Of a stretch of DNA of 28,889 bases, positions 6,803 through 24,208 are shown piece after piece. The DNA is from a virus. Where the stretch lies: IMG/VR virus record IMGVR_UViG_3300031963_000707, positions 1-28,889 of that record; one strand, written 5' to 3'. Every line of letters starts with the position of its first letter. The stretch's first letter is position 1. The translations under genes and the position numbers were made by a program. The notes under the pieces were generated by a model. It saw only the letters and a program-made list of their open reading frames with translations. It was not told where the DNA came from and made no database searches.

Positions 6803-6847
6803 CTAAATAGGCCGACCTGGAGCTCTGAGTGAGCGCTACCTATTTAG
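6803..6847. repeat. perfect inverted repeat CTAAATAGG / CCTATTTAG
   Basis: Nine-base arms at 6803-6811 and 6839-6847 separated by 27 nt. The arm core CTATTTAGG recurs at 10997-11005, before another minus-strand gene. No T-run follows, so an operator is more likely than a terminator. Confidence 0.5.
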
Positions 6848-7017
6848 AGGTGGCGGATTTTGGTGCTGCAGGTGGGAGGTAGGGAGTGTTCCCCTGGCGC
6901 GCTGCGGCCTTTGTGTGGGGGTGGGGCTGCTGGTGAGTGGGCGCCGGGCGCCTGTAGCTGGTGTCCAGCGCTGCGGTGCCGAATCTCCCGGATCCGTTGC
7001 GGTGCAGCGTGTCCAGT

Positions 7018-10969: not shown

Positions 10970-11053
10970 GGGCGCCGAGGGCGATGGGCGGGCTAGCTAT
11001 TTAGGGCTGAAGGTGGGGCAGCGCATGGCGCAGTGGGGCGTAGGTATTTGTGC

Positions 11054-14552: not shown

Positions 14553-15251
14553 CTACCTACTTAGGTTTGCTTGCAGGTGCTCCCAGAGAGCGCTGCCGCT
14601 TAGCCCGACAAGGCGGCCGATGGTGTCGAGGTCGTGAATCAGGCGGTCTGCTGGCACCGTGCGGTTGAGAAGCAGGGGCTCGATGGTGGGGCAGTCGTAG
14701 ACCAGCTCGGGCAGCTTTTCGTACCAGTCGATGTTGTGCTTGCCGTAGTGGGCGCGCAGGAACGCACCTAGAACGCGGCTGGCGCTGGGGGCGTCGACCT
14801 CGTCGAGGTAGCGACGTTCGCTGGCGGGGAGTTCTCGGAGGCCGCAGAACGCTTCAAACATGCCCAAAGGCCCCAGAGCAACGCCTTCGCGGTCGAGCAT
14901 TGGGATGGTGTGCTCCCAGATCTCCTTGAGGTAGTGGGGGAGCTTGGGTGGGTAGCCGATGTCGGGCGCTTGCTCGATCAGCTCTTCCGGGTGGCCGATG
15001 GAGCGGGCGAGGGCGGTGTTGAAGTAGCCGAGCGCCAGGAGCGTCTTGGGGGCGGGTTCGGTGAGCTTGCCGCTGCGGAAGCCGCCGATCGTGCTGCTGT
15101 GGATCGCCTTGGTGCCCAGGTAAGCCGCGGCCAGCTTCATGAACTGCGTCTGGGTCATCTGACTGCTCAGCGCCCGGAATGCTGGGGGGAACTGGATGGC
15201 GCCCTGTTCGAGTTTGGTGAGCAGTGGAGGCGCCTGGGTCGCGTCAGTCAT
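14553..15251 (-). CDS. unknown protein beside the repeat region
   Basis: A 232-residue protein. The N-terminal 60 residues (FRALSSQMTQTQFMKLAAAY, then SSTIGGFRSGKLTEPAPKTLLALGY) read like a helical DNA-binding domain: Q-T-Q-F-M-K-L-A resembles an XRE-type helix followed by a recognition-like TIGGFRSGK. The rest is helical with no motif I know. It is directly downstream of the 15320-15568 repeat region and the primase-helicase, the position of an origin-binding initiator or of a repressor. Either is an inference. Confidence 0.55.
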   Translation of the reverse strand: MTDATQAPPLLTKLEQGAIQFPPAFRALSSQMTQTQFMKLAAAYLGTKAIHSSTIGGFRSGKLTEPAPKTLLALGYFNTALARSIGHPEELIEQAPDIGYPPKLPHYLKEIWEHTIPMLDREGVALGPLGMFEAFCGLRELPASERRYLDEVDAPSASRVLGAFLRAHYGKHNIDWYEKLPELVYDCPTIEPLLLNRTVPADRLIHDLDTIGRLVGLSGSALWEHLQANLSR

Positions 15252-15264
15252 GTGTGCCCTAGCT

Positions 15265-15284
15265 AGGTAGCCCTGACGCTACCT
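15265..15284. promoter_or_regulatory. inverted repeat AGGTAG / CTACCT before the 232-aa gene
   Basis: Six-base arms at 15265-15270 and 15279-15284 with an 8-nt spacer, 13 nt upstream of the ATG at 15251. A possible operator. Confidence 0.35.
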
Positions 15285-15319
15285 GAGGTCGCACTAGCAG
15301 GGGTCCAAACTCCCGTTCC

Positions 15320-15568
15320 CTTTAATACTCCCCCGGTTTGCCTGTCCGAGTACCTACTAAACCCCTTGGGGGGGAATGGATTTGGACTCGGACAGTTGAC
15401 TCGGCCAGACTCGGACACTGTCCGCGCAACAAGCGCGCTTATTGAGAATGAGCCCTGTTTGACTCGGACACTGTCCGAGCAAAGTCCGAGTACGATTGTC
15501 CGAGCCGATCCATTGCAGCGCAGTCGGTTTCAGCGAACTCGGACAGGAAAAGGGGGAGAGTATTAAAG
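15320..15568. repeat. large inverted-repeat region with ACTCGGACA iterons, candidate replication origin
   Basis: Two 32-bp arms in inverted orientation, 15320-15351 and 15537-15568, agree at 28 of 32 positions, including ACTCGGACAGG at the inner ends and GAGTATTAAAG at the outer ends. Between them ACTCGGACA or its complement occurs at 15386, 15409, 15462, 15472 (8/9), 15484 (8 bp) and 15497 (8/9), with variants at 15399 and 15419. Two pairs form palindromes (15409-15424; 15463-15479). The 342-bp gap has no gene. It is next to the primase-helicase gene. An iteron-type origin is the leading idea; a multi-site operator is the alternative. Confidence 0.85.
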
Positions 15569-15593
15569 AGACCCCTCCCCAGTTGGGTGCTGA

Positions 15594-17840
15594 TCAGATG
15601 TAGTTGATGCCGTCGCCCCGGCTGGTGAGCATCTGCTGGGCGGAGGTGCGGACCTGTTGCCGGGGTCGGTAATGGAGGCAGGGGCGGTTGTTGACGATGG
15701 GGCTGGGGCGGAGCTCCGTCTCCAGCACCGTGCCCACCAGCCGGTCCAGGTAGCGGCGCAGGTTGCGCTCGTTGAACTGCAGGTCAAGCAGTTGCATCCA
15801 TTCGCTGGGGATGCGCCAGCGGTCGTCGGTGACGCGCCGGAACGCGGAGGCCAGCACCTCCATCGGTGATGCCTCTCCTTGGTTGGGGTCCATCCACTGC
15901 CAGACGCCGGTGTAGCCGTCGCGGGTGATCTGCAGCTTGCGCCCCGCATAGCCGCCCCGGCTCTTCTCCACCAGCAGGTGGCGGGTCTTGTTGAACGACG
16001 GCGCCGTCTTCTTCTGCTTGATCAGTTCGGGGTCGTAGTACACCCAGAGCTCCTCGCAGGCGGCCTTGATCTGTTCGGTGCCGCTGAAGCGCAGAGGCTC
16101 GTCGCGGCTGGTGTGGTGGAGGATCAGGAATGCGCACTTAGGCCAGCTGGTGCCGTTGTGCCGCACGAACATGCGGATCGGGTCGGCGTAGGCCGGGTCG
16201 CCCACCTTGACGCCAGTGACCGCCATGGAGGTGAGGCAGTCGCAGATCACCAGATCCGGCTTGAAGTCGCTCAGCGTCTGGACGATGGGGATCATGTCGT
16301 CGAAGTTGGCGCCGGAGTGGATCAGCAGGCGCTCTTGGCACGCCTTGTCCTCGATGCCTTCCAGCACCAGATCGCGCACCATGTCCTCATCGCTGCAGTC
16401 GCTGGTGAGCACCAGCACGCGGCCTGCGGTGTTGATGCCGTGGCGGGTGTTACCGATGTCGACTGGGGCGCCATTGAGGACCCGCGACGCCAGGAAGCAC
16501 GCCAGCGTTGTCTTGCCGCTGTGGCTCCCGCCGGCGACGACGTGGACGCGCCGGGGGAGCAGGCCGTCGAGCACGTCGGTGCCGACGTTGTCGTTGCGGC
16601 GCGATTTGGCGATGTCAGCCATGGAGCGCGGGGCGCCGAGGCTCACCACGCCCAGCCACTGCTCCAGGCGCAGGCGGTACAAGTCAGCAGGGCTCACGCC
16701 GTACTCGCGGTAGGCACGGCCGGTCCACGCCGCAAGCGCAGCGTGGTCGTGGCTCACCTCGTTCATCTTGTTGAGCACCTTCTTCAGCCCGTCGACGTGG
16801 AGCTGGGTTTGCTCCAGCGGGGGCAGCGCCCAGGTGGGCCACTGGAAGCCGTTGTTGCGCGCGAAGTGGAAGAGCGAGCCGATGCGGGCGCGCTGGTCTT
16901 CGGCCACGCGGCTACTCGCCAGCGACGCGATGGTCTTCTCCGCGGTGGTGTTGCCCCAGTCGTTGCGGGTGTCCCACTCGCTGGCTTCGATGATGTCCTG
17001 GGCGAGCTGGGGGCCGAACTCGTCAATGAGGCCGCAGACGATGCGACGCACTTTCTCGTAGGTGCCGCTCCCGCGCCCGTCGCGATTGGGGCAGAACTCC
17101 AACGCCTCGCGCGCCAGCTGGATCTTTTCGTGGGTGCGCAGGCGCTCCCATGGGGTGGCGTCGTCCTCGCCGGAGCGGCGGCGCTCCTCCGGGCTGTCGG
17201 GCACCTGCTCGTCGAACTTGGCGATGATGCCCAGCAGCAACCACTCAGGCGCGTCACCCCACTTCACGTCGGTGGGCGCACAGCCTTTGAGCCAGCGGTA
17301 GTAGAGCGGGCTTTGGTGGGAGCTCTGGGGGTGGTCGCCGCAGATGACGGCGTGGCGGCCGGTGCCGGTGCCATTCATCCAGATCGCTTCCAGCACCACC
17401 TTGTCGTCGACCCGCCAGCTGGCGCTGCGGTTCTCAAGCTGGGGCCACCAGTGGGGCGGGACGCGCAGGAAGATCTTGCCGCGGCCTTTCTTGCCGCTCT
17501 CGTTGCAGAGGGTGGGGCGCAGAGCGCTGGGGGTGCGGTGGAAGTGATCGCGGAATGCGCGGATCGCTTGGGAGCCGGTGCCGTCGAAGTCGATCACCAG
17601 TAGGCCGCCGGACTCCGGGCCGGTGATGGCGCCGACGCCGATCAGCTTGCTCGACTTCCAGCGCTCATACGGCGACGGCGAGGAGTTGATGCGCAACACG
17701 TCGTCGAGCGTGCGGCCGGAGCCCTTGGTGTTCCAGCCCTCCTCGAAACAGACCTTGGAATCGTCGTTGCCACCGGTGAGGGCGTACCGCCACTGGGGTG
17801 GGAGCCCGTCTAAGAGCGCCGTCTGGTCGTCGCGAAGCAT
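15594..17840 (-). CDS. primase-helicase: prim-pol domain fused to a RecA-like ATPase
   Basis: A 748-residue protein. Residues about 1-210 look like a bifunctional primase-polymerase domain: LLVIDFDGTGS supplies the catalytic acidic pair, with FLRVPPHWWPQ, then VLEAIWMNGTGTGRHAVICG containing the G-R-H core. After a linker, a RecA/DnaB-like ATPase has Walker A GGSHSGKTT (K443) and Walker B PDLVICDCLTS (D534), followed by a conserved L-H-H-T-S-R. One polypeptide can therefore prime and unwind at the fork. The ATG at 17840 diverges from the polymerase operon across 85 bp that carries a copy of the repeat-arm sequence. The C-terminal 100 residues are probably a winged-helix DNA-binding tail. Confidence 0.85.
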   Translation of the reverse strand: MLRDDQTALLDGLPPQWRYALTGGNDDSKVCFEEGWNTKGSGRTLDDVLRINSSPSPYERWKSSKLIGVGAITGPESGGLLVIDFDGTGSQAIRAFRDHFHRTPSALRPTLCNESGKKGRGKIFLRVPPHWWPQLENRSASWRVDDKVVLEAIWMNGTGTGRHAVICGDHPQSSHQSPLYYRWLKGCAPTDVKWGDAPEWLLLGIIAKFDEQVPDSPEERRRSGEDDATPWERLRTHEKIQLAREALEFCPNRDGRGSGTYEKVRRIVCGLIDEFGPQLAQDIIEASEWDTRNDWGNTTAEKTIASLASSRVAEDQRARIGSLFHFARNNGFQWPTWALPPLEQTQLHVDGLKKVLNKMNEVSHDHAALAAWTGRAYREYGVSPADLYRLRLEQWLGVVSLGAPRSMADIAKSRRNDNVGTDVLDGLLPRRVHVVAGGSHSGKTTLACFLASRVLNGAPVDIGNTRHGINTAGRVLVLTSDCSDEDMVRDLVLEGIEDKACQERLLIHSGANFDDMIPIVQTLSDFKPDLVICDCLTSMAVTGVKVGDPAYADPIRMFVRHNGTSWPKCAFLILHHTSRDEPLRFSGTEQIKAACEELWVYYDPELIKQKKTAPSFNKTRHLLVEKSRGGYAGRKLQITRDGYTGVWQWMDPNQGEASPMEVLASAFRRVTDDRWRIPSEWMQLLDLQFNERNLRRYLDRLVGTVLETELRPSPIVNNRPCLHYRPRQQVRTSAQQMLTSRGDGINYI

Positions 17841-17849
17841 GAATTCTTA

Positions 17850-17861
17850 AGTCGGACAGGC
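17850..17861. promoter_or_regulatory. isolated copy of the repeat-arm sequence in the primase/polymerase divergent region
   Basis: AGTCGGACAGGC differs at one base from ACTCGGACAGGC, the inner part of the left arm at 15340-15351 (complement). It lies 10 nt before the primase-helicase ATG. CCGAGTCCGG at 17881-17890 is a further variant. A shared regulator of both sites is suggested. Confidence 0.5.
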
Positions 17862-17925
17862 GGAAAGTAGCGTGACCTGACCGAGTCCGGTAGTCTCAGC
17901 GCACCTCAACCCAGGACGGTGCGCT

Positions 17926-18114
17926 TTGGACCTGATAGACGATGTCTTGATGCCGCACGAGCGGCGGGACCTGATCCAGGACATTCAGCTCGACACCTTC
18001 AGGCACCTCAAAGACGAGGACGTGCGCTGGGTCACGAGCTGGGCGCTGACGTTGGCGACCATGCCCGACGACACGATCATCCGCATCTGGAAGGGCATCC
18101 ATGGCGGACGTTGA
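17926..18114 (+). CDS. small acidic hypothetical protein before the polymerase
   Basis: A 62-residue protein starting with TTG at 17926, 9 nt after an AGGA; an in-frame ATG at 17950 is an alternative. The sequence (HERRDLIQDIQLDTFRHLKD, then WVTSWALTLATMPDDTIIRI) is helical and acidic. It overlaps the polymerase start by 14 bp, so it is translationally coupled. No family recognised; a polymerase accessory role is possible. Confidence 0.55.
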   Translation: MDLIDDVLMPHERRDLIQDIQLDTFRHLKDEDVRWVTSWALTLATMPDDTIIRIWKGIHGGR

Positions 18115-19918
18115 TCAGGCGCTTCTCTCCGACCTGGAGAGGTTCGGTAGCGCGTTTGCGCTCGACATGGAGACGGCGCTGGTGCCCCTGTGCTGGGAGG
18201 GTAGGCAGCAGCAGCGCCTGCTCCAGCTCTACAACGACAGCTGCAGTGCTTGGTATGACCTGAAGCTGTGGGGCGAGCCGCAGTGGGAGGCGCTGCGGGT
18301 GTGGCTCGAGAACCCGGAGCTGGAGGTGTACGGACACAACCTCGGGTTTGATGTGAAGTGTTTGCTGGCGTCAGGCGTTGAGGTGAGGGGGCGCCTGTAC
18401 GACACGATGATCGCGTCCCGGTTGATCCATCAGGGCACCGCCAACATCCGCCACTCACTGGGCGATGTGGTGCGCCGAGAGCTGGGGAAGGTGATTGACA
18501 AGTCTTTGCAGTCGCAGGACTGGATGAACGCCGAGCTCAGTGAGGCGGACCTGGCGTATGCAATGACGGACGTGAAGATGACGTGGGATGCCGCCCACTC
18601 ACTTCATGCGCAGGTGTACGAGCAGGGGCTGCTCCACACCTATCAGCTGGAGACGGCGCTCATCCCTGTCGTCGCGGCTATGGAGCTCAAGGGGATGTAT
18701 GTCGACACCGAGCAGTTGCGTTCGGCGCGGGAGTTCTACTGCTCGAGTCGCAATGAAGGGCAGGTGTTCTATGTGCAGCTGCTGGATGAGCAGCTGAAGG
18801 AGAAGGGGCATGAGGGCCTGCCCCGGCTGGCGTCTGGGGAGGTCAATCTCAACGCCAAGGCGACGGGCAAGGTGCGCGAGGGGACCAAGGTGCCGGCGGG
18901 ATTCAACATGGGTTCGCCGTTACAGCACGCTACGTATTGGGGGGTGCTGGGGATCGTGCCTAAAGACGACAAGGGCAAAGTGTCGCTGGATAAGAAGAAC
19001 CTGGCGACCTATCGCCATCACGAGATTGTCCGCACTTACGAGTTCTACAAGAAGGCGGAGAAGCGGGCAACGATGGCGGAGAAGCTCATTGAACATGTGC
19101 GGTGGGATGGGAGAATTCATGCGCAGTTCATGCCCTTGCAGACAGCCACAGGTCGCTGGAGTTGTTCTAACCCGAACCTGCAGCAGATACCGAGGGATCC
19201 TGAGTTTCGCACTGCGTTTACTGCGCCGGAGGGCCATGTGCTGGTGCAGGCGGATTACAGCGCGATGGAACTGCGTTACTTAGCGGCTGTGGCTGAATGC
19301 GCCCCGATGCTTGATGCGTTCAACAGCGGGGCGGATCTGCACACCCGCACGGCTGCGTTGATGTACGGCATCAAAGACGAGGAGGTTGAAAAACCCCAGA
19401 GAACTGCAGCTAAAGCGTGCAATTTTGGGTTGGCGTATGCGTCGGCGCCTAAGGGGTTGCAGTCGTATTTTGCGACGCTGGGGCTCTACATCAAGCCGAA
19501 AGAAGCTCGGGACTTTTATGAGATGTGGCACGCCGCCTACCCCGAGGTTGGGAAGTGGCACCGCTGGTGTCAGAAGCAGGTTGACGCGGGCGCGCCGGTG
19601 CGGACGGCTATAGGGCGTCGGCGGAAGCTGTACGGCGAGGAGAACCGCGTTCAGATCTTTGCCAATAACACAATCCAGGGGGGTTGCGCTGACATCATGA
19701 AGGCAGCGATGGTCTCGATTTTTCATCAACTTCCGGCCGGCGCACAGCTCGTTGCGTGTGTACACGACGAGGTCTTATGCGAATCGCGCATTGAGGCGGC
19801 TGACGAAGTGCTGGGGATCGTCGTCGGTGAGATGCAGGATGCTGCTATACCCATCGTCGGTACTGCAGTGACCATGAAGGTTGAGGGCGGAGTGGTTCGC
19901 AGCTGGGGGGAGAAGTAG
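18101..19918 (+). CDS. family A DNA polymerase with 3'-5' exonuclease
   Basis: A 605-residue enzyme with no 5'-nuclease domain, as in phage replicases. Exonuclease motifs are complete: D22 and E24 (LDMET), N80 and D84 (GHNLGFD), Y153 and D157 (YAMTD). Polymerase motif A DYSAMELR has D385, motif B R-T-A-A-K-A-C-N-F-G has K438 and F442, and motif C VHDEV has H555, D556 and E557. F442 corresponds to E. coli Pol I Phe762, the residue whose Phe/Tyr/Leu state is used to infer phage replication lifestyle. All catalytic residues are present, so it should be active and proofreading. Its neighbours are a small coupled gene upstream and a convergent serine recombinase downstream. Confidence 0.93.
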   Translation: MADVDQALLSDLERFGSAFALDMETALVPLCWEGRQQQRLLQLYNDSCSAWYDLKLWGEPQWEALRVWLENPELEVYGHNLGFDVKCLLASGVEVRGRLYDTMIASRLIHQGTANIRHSLGDVVRRELGKVIDKSLQSQDWMNAELSEADLAYAMTDVKMTWDAAHSLHAQVYEQGLLHTYQLETALIPVVAAMELKGMYVDTEQLRSAREFYCSSRNEGQVFYVQLLDEQLKEKGHEGLPRLASGEVNLNAKATGKVREGTKVPAGFNMGSPLQHATYWGVLGIVPKDDKGKVSLDKKNLATYRHHEIVRTYEFYKKAEKRATMAEKLIEHVRWDGRIHAQFMPLQTATGRWSCSNPNLQQIPRDPEFRTAFTAPEGHVLVQADYSAMELRYLAAVAECAPMLDAFNSGADLHTRTAALMYGIKDEEVEKPQRTAAKACNFGLAYASAPKGLQSYFATLGLYIKPKEARDFYEMWHAAYPEVGKWHRWCQKQVDAGAPVRTAIGRRRKLYGEENRVQIFANNTIQGGCADIMKAAMVSIFHQLPAGAQLVACVHDEVLCESRIEAADEVLGIVVGEMQDAAIPIVGTAVTMKVEGGVVRSWGEK

Positions 19919-19975: not shown

Positions 19976-21271
19976 TCAGAGGCGAAGCACCACGGTCTCC
20001 ACTTCCTGGCGATCCACCATCACCCGTTCGACCAGCGCTAGGTACAGCTCCCGCAGTTCCTCGTCGCTCAACTGTGACCAGACGGCAGGGTCGGCGAATA
20101 CAGACAGGAGCTGGGGGTCGGGGCCGACTTGCTGCTCCAGTGCTAACAGGCGCTCGCGCTTGATCTCAATCGCTGCGGCCATGTCAGGGTCGTCCAGCGC
20201 CTTTAACCACGCGATCTTGGCCTTAAGGGCCAGGGTCTCGGGGTTTTCTTTTGTGGCCAGCTGCGCTAACTGCGTGTTGCGCTTCGAGAGCTCGCTATTG
20301 ATCGCTTCGCGCACCGTTTGTTCTCGGGTGCTTTTGTAGCGCTGCGCACACTCTCGGCTTTTGCATACAACGCTGGCGATGGTGCGGCTGCCGGCGTAGG
20401 TCATCTTTTTGTTGCAGCCTGCGCATACGCAGAGGCCCGTTAAGAGCCGGGGCTTGACCTGGGCGCTGTGGCCCCAGCGTCTTCGGTTGTCATGCAACTG
20501 ACGTTCCATGATCACAAAGCTGCTGTGAGATAGCAGGGCTTCGTGAGTATCCCAGACGATTTCTTTGTAGGTGTTGTCGTTCTGTTTGAGATAGCCAAGG
20601 CCGCCTCGGAGGACTGGGTTGAGGAGCCAGGCTTTGACAGCGCGGCAGGAGCTTAAGGGGAGAGCGCCCAGCCCTGCTGTATGCCATTTATCGAGGGCAG
20701 TGTTCATGCGCCAGTCGCATTGCTTGCATAACGCAAGGAAGCGGGCCGCTCTCGGGAACTCTTGAGGGTCCGGCTCGAGGGCGCTGCGGTCGGCGTTGAC
20801 GCGGTAGCCCCAGGCGACCTTGCCGCGCAGGGGGCGGGCGCGCTTGCGGCCTTCGCTGTAGCCGGCGCGGACACGCATCGAGAGCATCCGGCTCTCCATC
20901 TCTGCCATTGAGGTGGCCATGCGCGACAGCAGGAAGCCCTGGGGCGTCTCGGAGTCGATGGTGCCGCCGTCGAGGCAGTGGATGCGCACACCGCGCTTGG
21001 CGGCAACGGCGATCAGCGCATCGGTCGCCGCAGCGTCCCGGCCAAGGCGGTCGACGCGGGTGCAGACGACCTCTTGCACCTGGCGCGTGTCGATGAGGTG
21101 CAGGAGCTCCAGGTAGCCGGGGCGGTCCTGGGAGAGCCCGCTCTCCACGTCCTCGATGAGGCGGTCGACGCCAGAGCCCAGAATGCGGGAGCGCTGGTTT
21201 TCCAGGGCGTTGAGCTGCTCGCTGGTGTCGGTCGACACCCGTAAATACCCGATGCGCACGGCTTGTCCCAT
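19976..21271 (-). CDS. large serine recombinase, XisF-like
   Basis: A 431-residue protein from the ATG at 21271. The catalytic domain begins IGYLRVSTDT with nucleophile S13, followed by VESGLSQDRPGYLELLHLID, CTRVDRLGRDAAATDALI and FLLSRMATSMAEMESRMLSM, all resolvase motifs. Then come a recombinase domain (KVAWGYRVN, a divergent cyanobacterial form) and a zinc ribbon (CVCAGCNKKMTY and VCKSRECAQRY). I recognise this as like XisF, the fdxN-element excisionase of filamentous cyanobacteria, and related phage integrases. An 80-residue N-terminal extension of the frame lacks resolvase similarity and was excluded. It probably integrates the phage or excises an element. It converges on the polymerase gene and diverges from the small-gene operon. 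Confidence 0.85.
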   Translation of the reverse strand: MGQAVRIGYLRVSTDTSEQLNALENQRSRILGSGVDRLIEDVESGLSQDRPGYLELLHLIDTRQVQEVVCTRVDRLGRDAAATDALIAVAAKRGVRIHCLDGGTIDSETPQGFLLSRMATSMAEMESRMLSMRVRAGYSEGRKRARPLRGKVAWGYRVNADRSALEPDPQEFPRAARFLALCKQCDWRMNTALDKWHTAGLGALPLSSCRAVKAWLLNPVLRGGLGYLKQNDNTYKEIVWDTHEALLSHSSFVIMERQLHDNRRRWGHSAQVKPRLLTGLCVCAGCNKKMTYAGSRTIASVVCKSRECAQRYKSTREQTVREAINSELSKRNTQLAQLATKENPETLALKAKIAWLKALDDPDMAAAIEIKRERLLALEQQVGPDPQLLSVFADPAVWSQLSDEELRELYLALVERVMVDRQEVETVVLRL

Positions 21272-21291
21272 GGGACTAACGCTATAGGGGC

Positions 21292-21319
21292 TTGACTTCC
21301 TGTGTGGAACAGATACTCT
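21292..21319 (+). promoter_or_regulatory. possible sigma70-type promoter for the 21344-24208 operon
   Basis: TTGACT followed after 16 nt by TACTCT, about 25 nt before the GTG at 21344. The -35 is close to consensus, the -10 weak. It is embedded in the inverted repeat at 21297-21338. Confidence 0.4.
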
Positions 21320-21338
21320 CTCCCTGTCCATACAGGAA
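21297..21338. repeat. inverted repeat TTCCTGTGTGGA / TCCATACAGGAA, candidate attachment site or operator
   Basis: Twelve-base arms at 21297-21308 and 21327-21338 match at 11 of 12 positions around an 18-nt centre. The 42-bp size and position beside the recombinase start are what a serine-recombinase att site would show. It also overlaps the promoter region of the plus-strand operon, so it may be an operator instead. Confidence 0.5.
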
Positions 21339-21343
21339 CACCC

Positions 21344-21568
21344 GTGACTTCCCTTGCGCCACGGCGCATCTCGGCGGTGGCCGAAGATTGCGTGACGCAC
21401 ACTGCAGAACTCTTGCAGCTGTTGAACCGCCTCTCTGACGGGGAGGTGGAGCTGAGTGAGGACGAGCGCGGTTACCAGGAGCTGGTTACCGCACTGTTCG
21501 CTCTTAAGCACGCCGTTCAGGGCATCAAGACCGTGGCCGCCCTTGAGGCGGGGAGGTACGGCTTGTGA
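21344..21568 (+). CDS. small hypothetical protein, first gene of the thyX-sigma operon
   Basis: A 74-residue protein from the GTG at 21344 (MTSLAPRRISAVAEDCVTHT). A longer frame from 21302 would start inside the promoter and inverted repeat and is less likely. Helical, acidic in the middle (LSDGEVELSEDERGYQELVT). It overlaps the next gene as GTGA. No family recognised. Confidence 0.6.
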   Translation: MTSLAPRRISAVAEDCVTHTAELLQLLNRLSDGEVELSEDERGYQELVTALFALKHAVQGIKTVAALEAGRYGL

Positions 21569-21994: not shown

Positions 21995-22145
21995 GCAGCT
22001 GTTTATGGAGTGGTGGTCGCAGTCGTACCCCAACGTCAAGCCGGCGCCACACACCATCACGACGCACGTTGCGTTTGCTGAATACATCGACAGCAAGCGC
22101 ACGCAAGAAGTGTTGGACTGCATCGCCAAGTCCGGCGCTGAGTAG
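21984..22145 (+). CDS. small hypothetical protein
   Basis: A 53-residue protein from the GTG at 21984 (MTTEQLFMEWWSQSYPNVKP, ending VLDCIAKSGAE). Aromatic-rich start, then helical. Like its neighbours it overlaps the preceding gene. It is too short to place in a family. Confidence 0.5.
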   Translation: MTTEQLFMEWWSQSYPNVKPAPHTITTHVAFAEYIDSKRTQEVLDCIAKSGAE

Positions 22146-22157
22146 AGGGCGGGCGTC

Positions 22158-22496
22158 GTGTTGTGCCCAGCTTGCACCGGCAAATACAGCCGGCCCAGCA
22201 AAACATTCCGCGACGCCCCCGACTCATTTCTGCGCTTTCGCGACTGCAAACACTGCGGTCACCGCTGGTGGACGATTGAAATCCTCGCGCCGAAAGACGC
22301 GATCCAGTGGATGGCGCGGGATCAGCCGGTGCGGCGTCCTAATTATCAACGAATCCGCTTTTCCAACAATGAAAGTAACTCTGGTGCATCGAACCGATGG
22401 CGCCGAGGCGCTTACGGCTTACATGGCACGAGTAAGCAACCCGGACAATCAGGACAATCAGGAGACGGCTCCCCGCCTGATTCGATACCTGATTGA
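22158..22496 (+). CDS. zinc-ribbon protein, NrdR-like, overlapping thyX
   Basis: The first 75 of 112 residues look functional: C-P-A-C near residue 3 and C-K-H-C-G-H-R-W near residue 30 form a zinc ribbon like that of NrdR. It starts with GTG at 22158. The last 42 codons overlap the start of thyX in another frame and are low-complexity (G-Q-S-G-Q-S-G-D-G), so this tail may be tolerated rather than selected. A second stand-alone ribbon is at 11341. Confidence 0.6.
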   Translation: MLCPACTGKYSRPSKTFRDAPDSFLRFRDCKHCGHRWWTIEILAPKDAIQWMARDQPVRRPNYQRIRFSNNESNSGASNRWRRGAYGLHGTSKQPGQSGQSGDGSPPDSIPD

Positions 22497-23004
22497 GCAC
22501 CAGCACTGGAGCCCGTTTGAGATGTGCTCTCTCTGCGTGAAGATTGAGACGGAGCGGGACATTGCAGCGCAACTGCTGCGTCACCGGAGCTTCTCCTTCC
22601 AGGAGTTCAGCACCCGCTACGCGCGCACATCCATCGCCGAAATTCCTCGTTTCAGGCGCCAGGACACCCAGAACCGCCAGAACTCTTTCGATGACTACAG
22701 CGAGGAGGATCAGGCGCAGCTAGAGCGGGACGCCGGTGCGGTCATCACCAAGGCGTATGGGCTCTATTACGCGATGGTGGAAAACGGGGTGGCGCGGGAG
22801 ACGGCGCGGCGCATCCTGCCGATGTGTACGCCCACTGTGCTCTACATGCACGGCACGCTGCGCTCGTGGATTCATTACATCCAGGTGCGCACGGACGCCG
22901 GTACGCAACTGGAGCACCGCGAGATTGCGGAGCAGTGCAAACAGGTGTTCTGCCGTGAGTTCCCCGGCATTGGCGAGGCGGCGTTTGGCGTAGGGGCGGA
23001 GTGA
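22369..23004 (+). CDS. thyX: flavin-dependent thymidylate synthase
   Basis: A 211-residue enzyme from the ATG at 22369, where ThyX similarity begins; the frame upstream is unrelated. The signature R-H-R-x-x-S-x-Q-E-x-S-x-R-Y occupies residues 71-84 (RHRSFSFQEFSTRY), and a C-terminal R-T-D-A-G-T-Q-L-E-H-R-E-I segment matches the substrate-binding part. It methylates dUMP to dTMP with methylene-tetrahydrofolate and FAD and is common in cyanophages, where it raises thymidine supply for replication. The start overlaps the preceding zinc-ribbon gene by 128 bp; its stop overlaps the next gene. Confidence 0.92.
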   Translation: MKVTLVHRTDGAEALTAYMARVSNPDNQDNQETAPRLIRYLIEHQHWSPFEMCSLCVKIETERDIAAQLLRHRSFSFQEFSTRYARTSIAEIPRFRRQDTQNRQNSFDDYSEEDQAQLERDAGAVITKAYGLYYAMVENGVARETARRILPMCTPTVLYMHGTLRSWIHYIQVRTDAGTQLEHREIAEQCKQVFCREFPGIGEAAFGVGAE

Positions 23005-23198
23005 GCACTGCGCCTTTTCACAGCGCACTGGCGCTGGGCGGTGTGCCGGAGCTGTTGCTGGAGGTGGTGGAGCAGGGGCAGCGGTTCGCCGCCGCGCAGC
23101 ACCCAGCCGTGGACAACCGCTCCCTCTATGCCTTTCTCGCAGAACTGCAGTACAGCGTTCGCTCTTCGGAAACCTTGACTAATGCAAACTCACAATGA
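23001..23198 (+). CDS. small hypothetical protein between thyX and the sigma factor
   Basis: A 65-residue protein from the GTG at 23001, overlapping the thyX stop, and ending over the sigma ATG (ATGA). The sequence [20 protein letters not shown] then [15 protein letters not shown] is helical. The double coupling makes it likely to be translated and sets sigma translation. Function unknown. Confidence 0.55.
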
Positions 23199-24208
23199 GA
23201 ATTGATCACAGCTTTTCTGATTTCCTAAACGAGATCGCTCGTTACCCTCTGCTTACCGTTACTCAGGAGGTACTTCTGGGCCGGCAGGTGCAGCGCTTGA
23301 CGCAGCTGCGCGAGAAGGAGGCGGCAGGGGGTCGGCTCACCAAGGCGGAGGCGCGCGAAGTGCGCTTGGGTGAGAGGGCCAAGCAGCAGATGGTGAACTG
23401 CAATTTGCGCATGGTGGTCTCCATCGCCAAGAAGTACCTCAAGCGCGTCAACCACCTGACGATGCTTGACCTCATCCAGGAGGGCACGATTGGGTTGATG
23501 CGGGGGGTCGAGAAGTTTGACCCCGCGCGGGGCTACAAGTTCTCGACCTACGCCTACTGGTGGATTCGGCAGGGGATGAACCGGGCTGTGAATCAGCAGG
23601 ACGCGGCGATTCGGCTGCCGCACCACGTCGCTGAGAAGGTGCCCAAGCTCAAGTACACCATGCAGCAGCTGTCGCAGCAGCTGGGGCGGACGCCCAGCAA
23701 GCAGGAGCTGGCGGATGCGATGGGGATGTCGGTGGAGCAGATGTGGATGATTTTTGAGCGCACGGCTGCGCCGACGTCGCTGGATGCGTCGTGCGTGGAC
23801 GATGGCAACCCGCTCATCGACTTGATCCCAGACCCCAGCTACCTGGACGACGACGCCATCTTTTTGATTGATGACCGCTGGCGTCTGGAAGCCTGCTTGG
23901 CACGACTGTCTGAGCGTGAGCGCTACGTGCTTGAACACCGCCACGAGCTGACTGGTAAGGCGCCTGTGGCGTATCAGGTGTTGGCCCAGGACCTCGGGGT
24001 GTCGAGGGAGCGGGTGCGGCAGATTGAGATCAGGGCGCTGCGCACGCTGCGGCTGTACATGAGCTCGGTGTCGCCCTTAGCCGATGCCAAGGTCCTCGCA
24101 GACCTCGCGGGCCATGGAGAGAAAAGCGCTGACCTCGCTGGGCTCCGCATGAGCGCCAAGGAACAGGACAAGCTCCAGCTCGCCAATGCGACCCACCGCG
24201 TTCGCTAA
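23195..24208 (+). CDS. RpoD-family sigma factor, cyanobacterial group-2-like
   Basis: A 337-residue protein. Region 1.2 is [13 protein letters not shown]; region 2 is nearly canonical ([58 protein letters not shown]); region 3 follows at [13 protein letters not shown]; region 4.2 is [20 protein letters not shown]. Region 4.1/4.2 has diverged ([20 protein letters not shown] replaces the usual F-G-L ... T-L-E-E-I-G). It would bind host core RNA polymerase and redirect it. The last 50 residues lie beyond the sigma fold and are antisense to the gene at 24077. It ends a run of overlapping genes, so it is likely expressed with thyX. It is the natural candidate to read the repeated GGCAACTTAG element. 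Confidence 0.9.

Follow-up and report, generated by a model that had tools for sequence, protein, structure and literature searches.

The element at 15317-15571 of the window (the whole IMG/VR virus record, 28,889 b) is very probably a phage replication origin built from iterons, which would be read by the phage's own primase-helicase, with autoregulation of the primase promoter in most of the clade. The sequence-only reading had proposed an origin or a 'master operator' here. Comparison of related loci gives good support to an iteron origin connected with the replication gene next to it, and the operator part was right in so far as the same words recur in the primase promoter. The anatomy of the element, its conserved position and geometry, and the coupled change of its iterons and a protein wing in two prim-pol families were computed directly. 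The record is that of a tailed phage of cyanophage affinity: among cyanophages, S-2L, S-H1 and KBS-S-2A have the nearest portals and S-EIV1 and S-LBS1 the nearest primases. In the literature searched, no origin was found described for this prim-pol phage group.

The inverted arms first seen at 15320-15351 and 15537-15568 match at 28 of 32 positions, as reported, and the match can be extended to 35 nt at 86% identity (15317-15351 / 15537-15571). Dinucleotide shuffling of the intergenic region (200 rounds) gave best 32-nt inverted matches of 18.6 on average and 22 at most. The iteron is a 9-base word, XXXXGGACA, with the window form ACTCGGACA. Ten sites were counted at 15317-15571 with up to two mismatches allowed, starting at 15343 (-), 15386 (+), 15399 (+), 15409 (+), 15419 (-), 15462 (+), 15472 (-), 15483 (-), 15497 (-) and 15537 (+). 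Further copies in both orientations had been described between the arms; these were borne out in greater number than reported, and both fused head-to-head palindromes (15409-15427 and 15462-15480) are real. All ten sites form 5 mirror pairs about one centre, 15444, an order equalled by 1/5000 random arrays. The earlier reading had seen the arms and overlooked this full two-fold symmetry. The parts of the element are:

15317-15571, no strand: putative origin, dyad-symmetric iteron element; outer arms 15317-15351 and 15537-15571, 28/32 arm match, 5 mirror pairs
15343-15351, minus: iteron ACTCGGACA, right arm; pairs with 15537
15386-15394, plus: iteron ACTCGGACA; pairs with 15497
15399-15407, plus: iteron ACTCGGCCA; pairs with 15483
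15409-15427, no strand: head-to-head pair ACTCGGACA / GCGCGGACA, sites 15409 (+) and 15419 (-)
15427-15444, no strand: central small hairpin CAACAAGCGCGCTTATTG, conserved in relatives as CTCAATAAG..CTTRTTG
15462-15480, no strand: head-to-head pair ACTCGGACA / GCTCGGACA, sites 15462 (+) and 15472 (-)
15483-15491, minus: iteron ACTCGGACT; pairs with 15399
15497-15505, minus: iteron GCTCGGACA; pairs with 15386
15537-15545, plus: iteron ACTCGGACA, left arm; pairs with 15343

The element contains all 5 exact occurrences of ACTCGGACA in the 28,889-b record, and a reversed control pattern occurs 0 times. One-mismatch matches to ACTCGGACA number 16 against 5.4 expected (largest of 100 shuffles, 12), with 5 of them, the chance level, beyond the element and the primase promoter. 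As in iteron origins, several copies of one word (10) are concentrated at one place. The AT-rich ends that had been described proved weak: AT content is 45% in the element and 36% in the window (28,889 b), AT runs in the element are only short, and no strong AT-rich unwinding region was found in it by AT content. Cumulative GC skew, proposed earlier as a check, has no turning point at the element. Promoter and terminator scans gave nothing informative. A non-repeat block of the element, CCATTCCCCCCCAAGGGGTTT (15359-15380, minus strand), is strongly conserved in close relatives, and this block and its counterparts form a small hairpin of their own.

No convincing gene was found in the region, which is flanked by two minus-strand genes, in agreement with the first description. 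The element comes after the stop codon of a 748-aa protein, with a gap of ~25 nt, and the identification of this neighbour as the primase-helicase was upheld. One polypeptide holds primase, helicase and winged helix. The arm-like copy noticed at 17850 in its promoter is real, and a second promoter copy was found at 17878-17886. The gene, its C-terminal parts and the promoter copies are:

15594-17840, minus: primase-helicase, 748 aa; AEP prim-pol at ~aa 55-206, RecA-like AAA_25 helicase at aa 422-580, C-terminal winged helix at aa 659-739
15624-15866, minus: winged-helix domain, proposed iteron reader, aa 659-739 (AF2; weak fold matches)
15675-15716, minus: wing, aa 709-722, hypervariable, tracks the 4 variable iteron bases
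15738-15770, minus: recognition helix, about aa 691-701, unchanged among close relatives with an unchanged GGACA core
17850-17858, plus: iteron copy AGTCGGACA, primase promoter (one-mismatch scan)
17878-17886, minus: iteron copy ACTCGGTCA, primase promoter (one-mismatch scan)

The window protein gave an AAA_25 helicase domain match at 3e-9 and a phrog_1156 primase match at 1.8e-8. AAA_25 was present in 8/8 family members checked (best 2.8e-10), and the helicase part was matched to RadA/RecA folds by Foldseek at about 1e-4. PF09250 gave no direct match in the window protein itself. A 51% identical relative, L045, matched PF09250 Prim-Pol at 5.8e-9, above the Pfam cut-off, and AAA_25 likewise, and the window protein aligns to the S-LBS1 prim-pol domain at 6e-14; the window primase is therefore assigned to the AEP prim-pol type by its relatives. 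No Pfam match to a PriCT or Zn-binding domain after the primase was obtained in the window or relatives. The AF2 model has winged-helix topology at aa 659-739 with a core pLDDT of ~90 and is good in this C-terminal domain only (full-length pLDDT 46). Foldseek of the domain returned winged-helix regulators at weak E-values (0.05-0.4), and a PDB sequence search returned nothing relevant. The DNA polymerase A gene (18101-19918) is divergent from the primase-helicase gene.

Primase-based searches yielded about 15 related loci at 51-100% identity; no relatives were found in bacterial genomes. In the loci covering the interval, whose comparison had been proposed as a check, the element keeps its location 3' of the primase gene. 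The exceptions are L008 and L044, in which the repeat is weak, and the most distant locus, L045, in which it was undetected. Relatives with the same replication genes thus keep the element, and no sign of a mobile element was seen. Although the inverted arms are equal in length, the chance that they are terminal repeats of a MITE-like mobile element is negligible: the element is single-copy in each genome and holds one position in all relatives, an outer-arm pattern run against 2.9 million viral contigs returned this clade and one chance match, and phages and plasmids gave no match. The mobile-element reading was rejected, copies at other loci not having been found.

The four bases before GGACA are ACTC in the window, TCTC in L003, ACAC in L004, L006 and L007, and AACC/AATC in L005. 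In other loci they are GTTC (L009), AGGC (L024, L029) and ACGC/ACAG (L025), and the iteron of L028 is ATACCGGCA, with a changed core. The iterons change in concert: words differ between relatives and most copies within one genome agree. The site order -+++-+---+ is largely preserved across motifs, L028 included, and exact own-motif copies beyond the element and promoter number 0-1 per locus. In L005 (8248-8547 and the primase promoter) plus-strand copies read AACCGGACA and minus-strand copies AATCGGACA; the iteron forms ACGCGGACA and ACAGGGACA at L025:3016-3355 are likewise orientation-specific. L006 and L049 (IMGVR_UViG_3300044701_004470 and _004588) come from one metagenome and are probably one virus, since their contigs end and begin at the element as if the long palindrome broke assembly.

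Motif consensus and wing limits were chosen by the authors from k-mer counts and the AF2 model. Among the window and L003-L006 the primase-helicase is 94-97% identical, and both the recognition helix (about 689-703) and the GGACA core are unchanged. In the same set the wing (709-722) is 57-71% different wherever the motif clearly differs; it is 14% different between the window and L003, with the near-identical motifs ACTC and TCTC. L007 has the ACAC motif and a PNARV.NKTV wing in common with L004/L006, though it is 16% different elsewhere in the protein. In L028 the changed core is accompanied by loss of a recognition-helix arginine (R696 to T). With the rest of the protein removed, wing distance and motif distance gave a partial Mantel r of 0.62 (p 1e-4, n=10), in a test that is liberal for related sequences. 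These comparisons suggest that the recognition helix reads GGACA and the wing reads the variable positions in front of it. They make the primase-helicase the best-supported binder, presumably acting through its own C-terminal winged helix.

The promoter copies, 2.2 kb away, match the iteron variant of their own genome (permutation p = 1.5e-4). A trans-acting reader is therefore needed, and at that distance local homogenisation is not the explanation. No own-motif copies were found in the promoter of the L024/L028 clade. L024 and L028 are ~99-100% identical either side of one block, with the upstream 400 nt and the first 651 codons nearly the same. The exchanged block begins at codon 652 and ends 326 nt beyond the stop; it comprises precisely the winged helix and the element, and the iterons are exchanged with it. 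The site orders (-++-+---+ in L024, -+++-+--+ in L028) are similar and the words different.

The same layout recurs behind a second prim-pol family. S-LBS1 is a cultured cyanophage of Synechococcus (Lake Bourget; host strain Synechococcus sp. TCC793) whose prim-pol is joined to a VirE-type helicase, and AGGTTRGGCA repeats lie directly after its prim-pol gene, SLBS1_A52; a text search of the S-LBS1 paper found no mention of repeats (PMC6157547). At least four GGTNGG sites were present in the 330 nt after the stop in 70/76 full-length elements of the S-LBS1 type; relatives of this type number 283. Counted per 150-nt bin, site density peaks in the 300 nt that follow the stop (3.9, then 3.8) and is mostly <1 in the other bins, the next-highest value being 2.0, inside the gene at -450. 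Wing and variable iteron bases change together across 51 representatives (partial r 0.58, p 2e-4; Mantel-type, liberal for related sequences), and the recognition helix follows the iteron bases less closely (partial r 0.33). Pairs with the same motif have more similar wings in every divergence band. L076 and L084 are a second natural swap, being 3.5% apart elsewhere with an 80% different wing and different iterons. Iterons and wings correspond as GGTAGGGCA with M..GQR.W.W, GGTTGGCA with QRWVF, GGTNGGAA with DG.LKWVF and GGTGGGGTA with RYRSGKGSSRAYVY. Cyanophage S-2L has no iterons behind its PrimPol (z -1.8). A second copy of ~130 nt of the iteron region lies at the end of the S-LBS1 record (L063:6107-6511, MG271909.1) and represents a genuine duplication or else an overlap left from assembling a circular map.

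Winged helix and element are neighbours in the DNA, ~25 nt apart, and were swapped jointly in L024/L028, so hitch-hiking could yield part of the correlation. That they were exchanged together through adjacency alone, the repeats not being read by the primase, is nevertheless improbable. Hitch-hiking is argued against by the own variant in promoter copies 2.2 kb away and by the concentration of change in the wing with an unchanged recognition helix. Against it stand also L007, which has the motif and most of the wing of L004/L006 despite 16% difference elsewhere, and the repetition of the pattern in the S-LBS1-type family.

Because the sites stand in mirror order the whole stretch folds as a single long hairpin, with z-scores of -10.5 (RNA) and -9.1 (DNA) for the entire element. 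Most close relatives retain this very strong folding, the stretch behind the gene in the S-LBS1 family also folds strongly (median z -5.4), and in pRN1 the origin is a stem-loop in this position (PMC4234260). Action as a structured RNA or an extruded single-strand DNA hairpin, which would be compatible with the proposed iteron origin, is a distinctly improbable alternative to a double-stranded iteron array: same-strand sites and promoter copies change together, and base pairing alone needs neither. Rfam gave no match for the element. The consensus covariation term was about zero (+0.45), and pairs changed on both sides fall largely in the iterons.

An array of operators was also weighed, in which the element would be only a regulatory site, of the immunity-type stoperator kind, through which a repressor controls the primase together with the operon downstream. 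In its favour, the primase promoter region is overlapped by two copies whose variants follow those of the element, immunity systems diversify in a coupled fashion like the wing and iterons here, and the phage may be temperate, given its large serine recombinase with an integrase annotation. This account is unlikely, since the motif is tracked by the primase-helicase instead of a dedicated repressor, loci have only 0-1 exact copies away from element and promoter, and a second prim-pol family, whose helicase differs, has the same layout. ThyX, a sigma-70-type factor and the recombinase are encoded at 22069-23004 (+), 23195-24208 (+) and 19976-21511 (-), respectively. The proteins encoded at 14553 and 14310 had been put forward for binding tests. 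The HTH-like part of 14553 is nearly unchanged among the window, L003, L004 and L005 despite their differing iterons, and ORF 14553 was rejected as the main binder on this ground. For the RHH protein 14310 no support as iteron binder was found, and it is unlikely to be one.

For the iteron origin, we infer binding, unwinding, priming, bidirectionality and autoregulation at the element as follows. The primase-helicase would bind through its C-terminal winged helix, with the helix on GGACA and the wing on the four variable bases, and from the ten sites helicase-primase would be loaded to either side of the centre. Their arrangement in mirror halves suggests a pair of helicase assemblies in opposed orientation. 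DNA would be opened there, or the hairpin extruded, and priming at the element would be followed by hand-over to the phage DNA polymerase A (18101-19918). The same primase-helicase would occupy the two copies in its own promoter and probably limit its own synthesis.

The nearest experimental precedent for the position of the proposed origin is pRN1, whose origin is a stem-loop directly 3' of the prim-pol/helicase/winged-helix gene (PMC4234260). A hairpin-forming region directly 3' of the replication gene is likewise present in the window and relatives. ORF904 of pRN1 also combines AEP prim-pol, helicase and C-terminal winged helix in one protein, and its inverted, hairpin-forming origin 3' of the gene is variable in sequence with the structure kept; pRN1 differs in having an SF3 helicase and no iterons (PMC4234260), where the window has a RecA-like AAA_25 helicase and ten mirror-ordered iterons. 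The alpha protein of satellite phage P4 has primase, helicase and C-terminal winged helix in one polypeptide, and its winged helix recognises iterons (PMC4234260). Its primase is of the TOPRIM type and its helicase SF3, in contrast to AEP and RecA-like AAA_25 here, and in the parts of PMC4234260 consulted neither mirror arrangement nor coupled diversification was found described for P4. RSF1010 resembles the present system in its iteron binder, its RepA helicase and a primase acting on opposed single-strand start signals (RepA/RepB'/RepC and oriV; PMC4234260), but uses three separate proteins instead of one fused protein. By analogy the two mirror arms here could be opposed start signals of the RSF1010 kind.

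By domain make-up the protein resembles the PrimPol-PV1 supergroup (PrimQH and all3500 families), with AEP prim-pol, RepA/RecA-type ATPase and winged helix. Kazlauskas et al. 2018 put forward origin recognition as a possible role of the C-terminal winged helix in PrimQH proteins (PMC5862659); neither an origin sequence nor evidence on specificity was found in the portion consulted. The present sequence comparisons support this idea. Iterons of close relatives also differ in geminiviruses, suggesting diversifying selection on the matched pair of Rep initiator and site, but geminivirus Reps are unrelated rolling-circle proteins of eukaryotic ssDNA viruses with iterons upstream of rep (PMC12548392). 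We conclude that the phage origin system described here appears to be a previously undescribed variant of the P4/pRN1/PrimQH kind.

There is an even chance, in our estimate, that prim-pol phages hold replication-specificity types, in which wing and iterons form a simple readable code that has been switched repeatedly, sometimes as a cassette, in at least two unrelated prim-pol families. The question raised is why close relatives keep altering the specificity of initiator and origin. The likely cause would be that viruses escape cross-recognition by relatives or satellites infecting the same cell, or that lysogens are immune at the level of replication. The coupled change provides a testable prediction of binder/site pairs in hundreds of viruses, together with natural swaps, and a rule for finding origins in the group, namely to look for them within 300 nt 3' of the prim-pol gene.

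A second palindrome, CTACCTANNTAGG, is over-represented in the window, with 10 matches (up to two mismatches) against 1.7 expected. Sites are at 15258-15270 (-), 14553-14565 (+), 10993-11005 (+) and 6836-6848 (+), and the palindrome sits just before the starts of the 14553 and 14310 genes. It may be an operator of the RHH protein 14310 or of 14553, for which it is a better candidate than the iterons.
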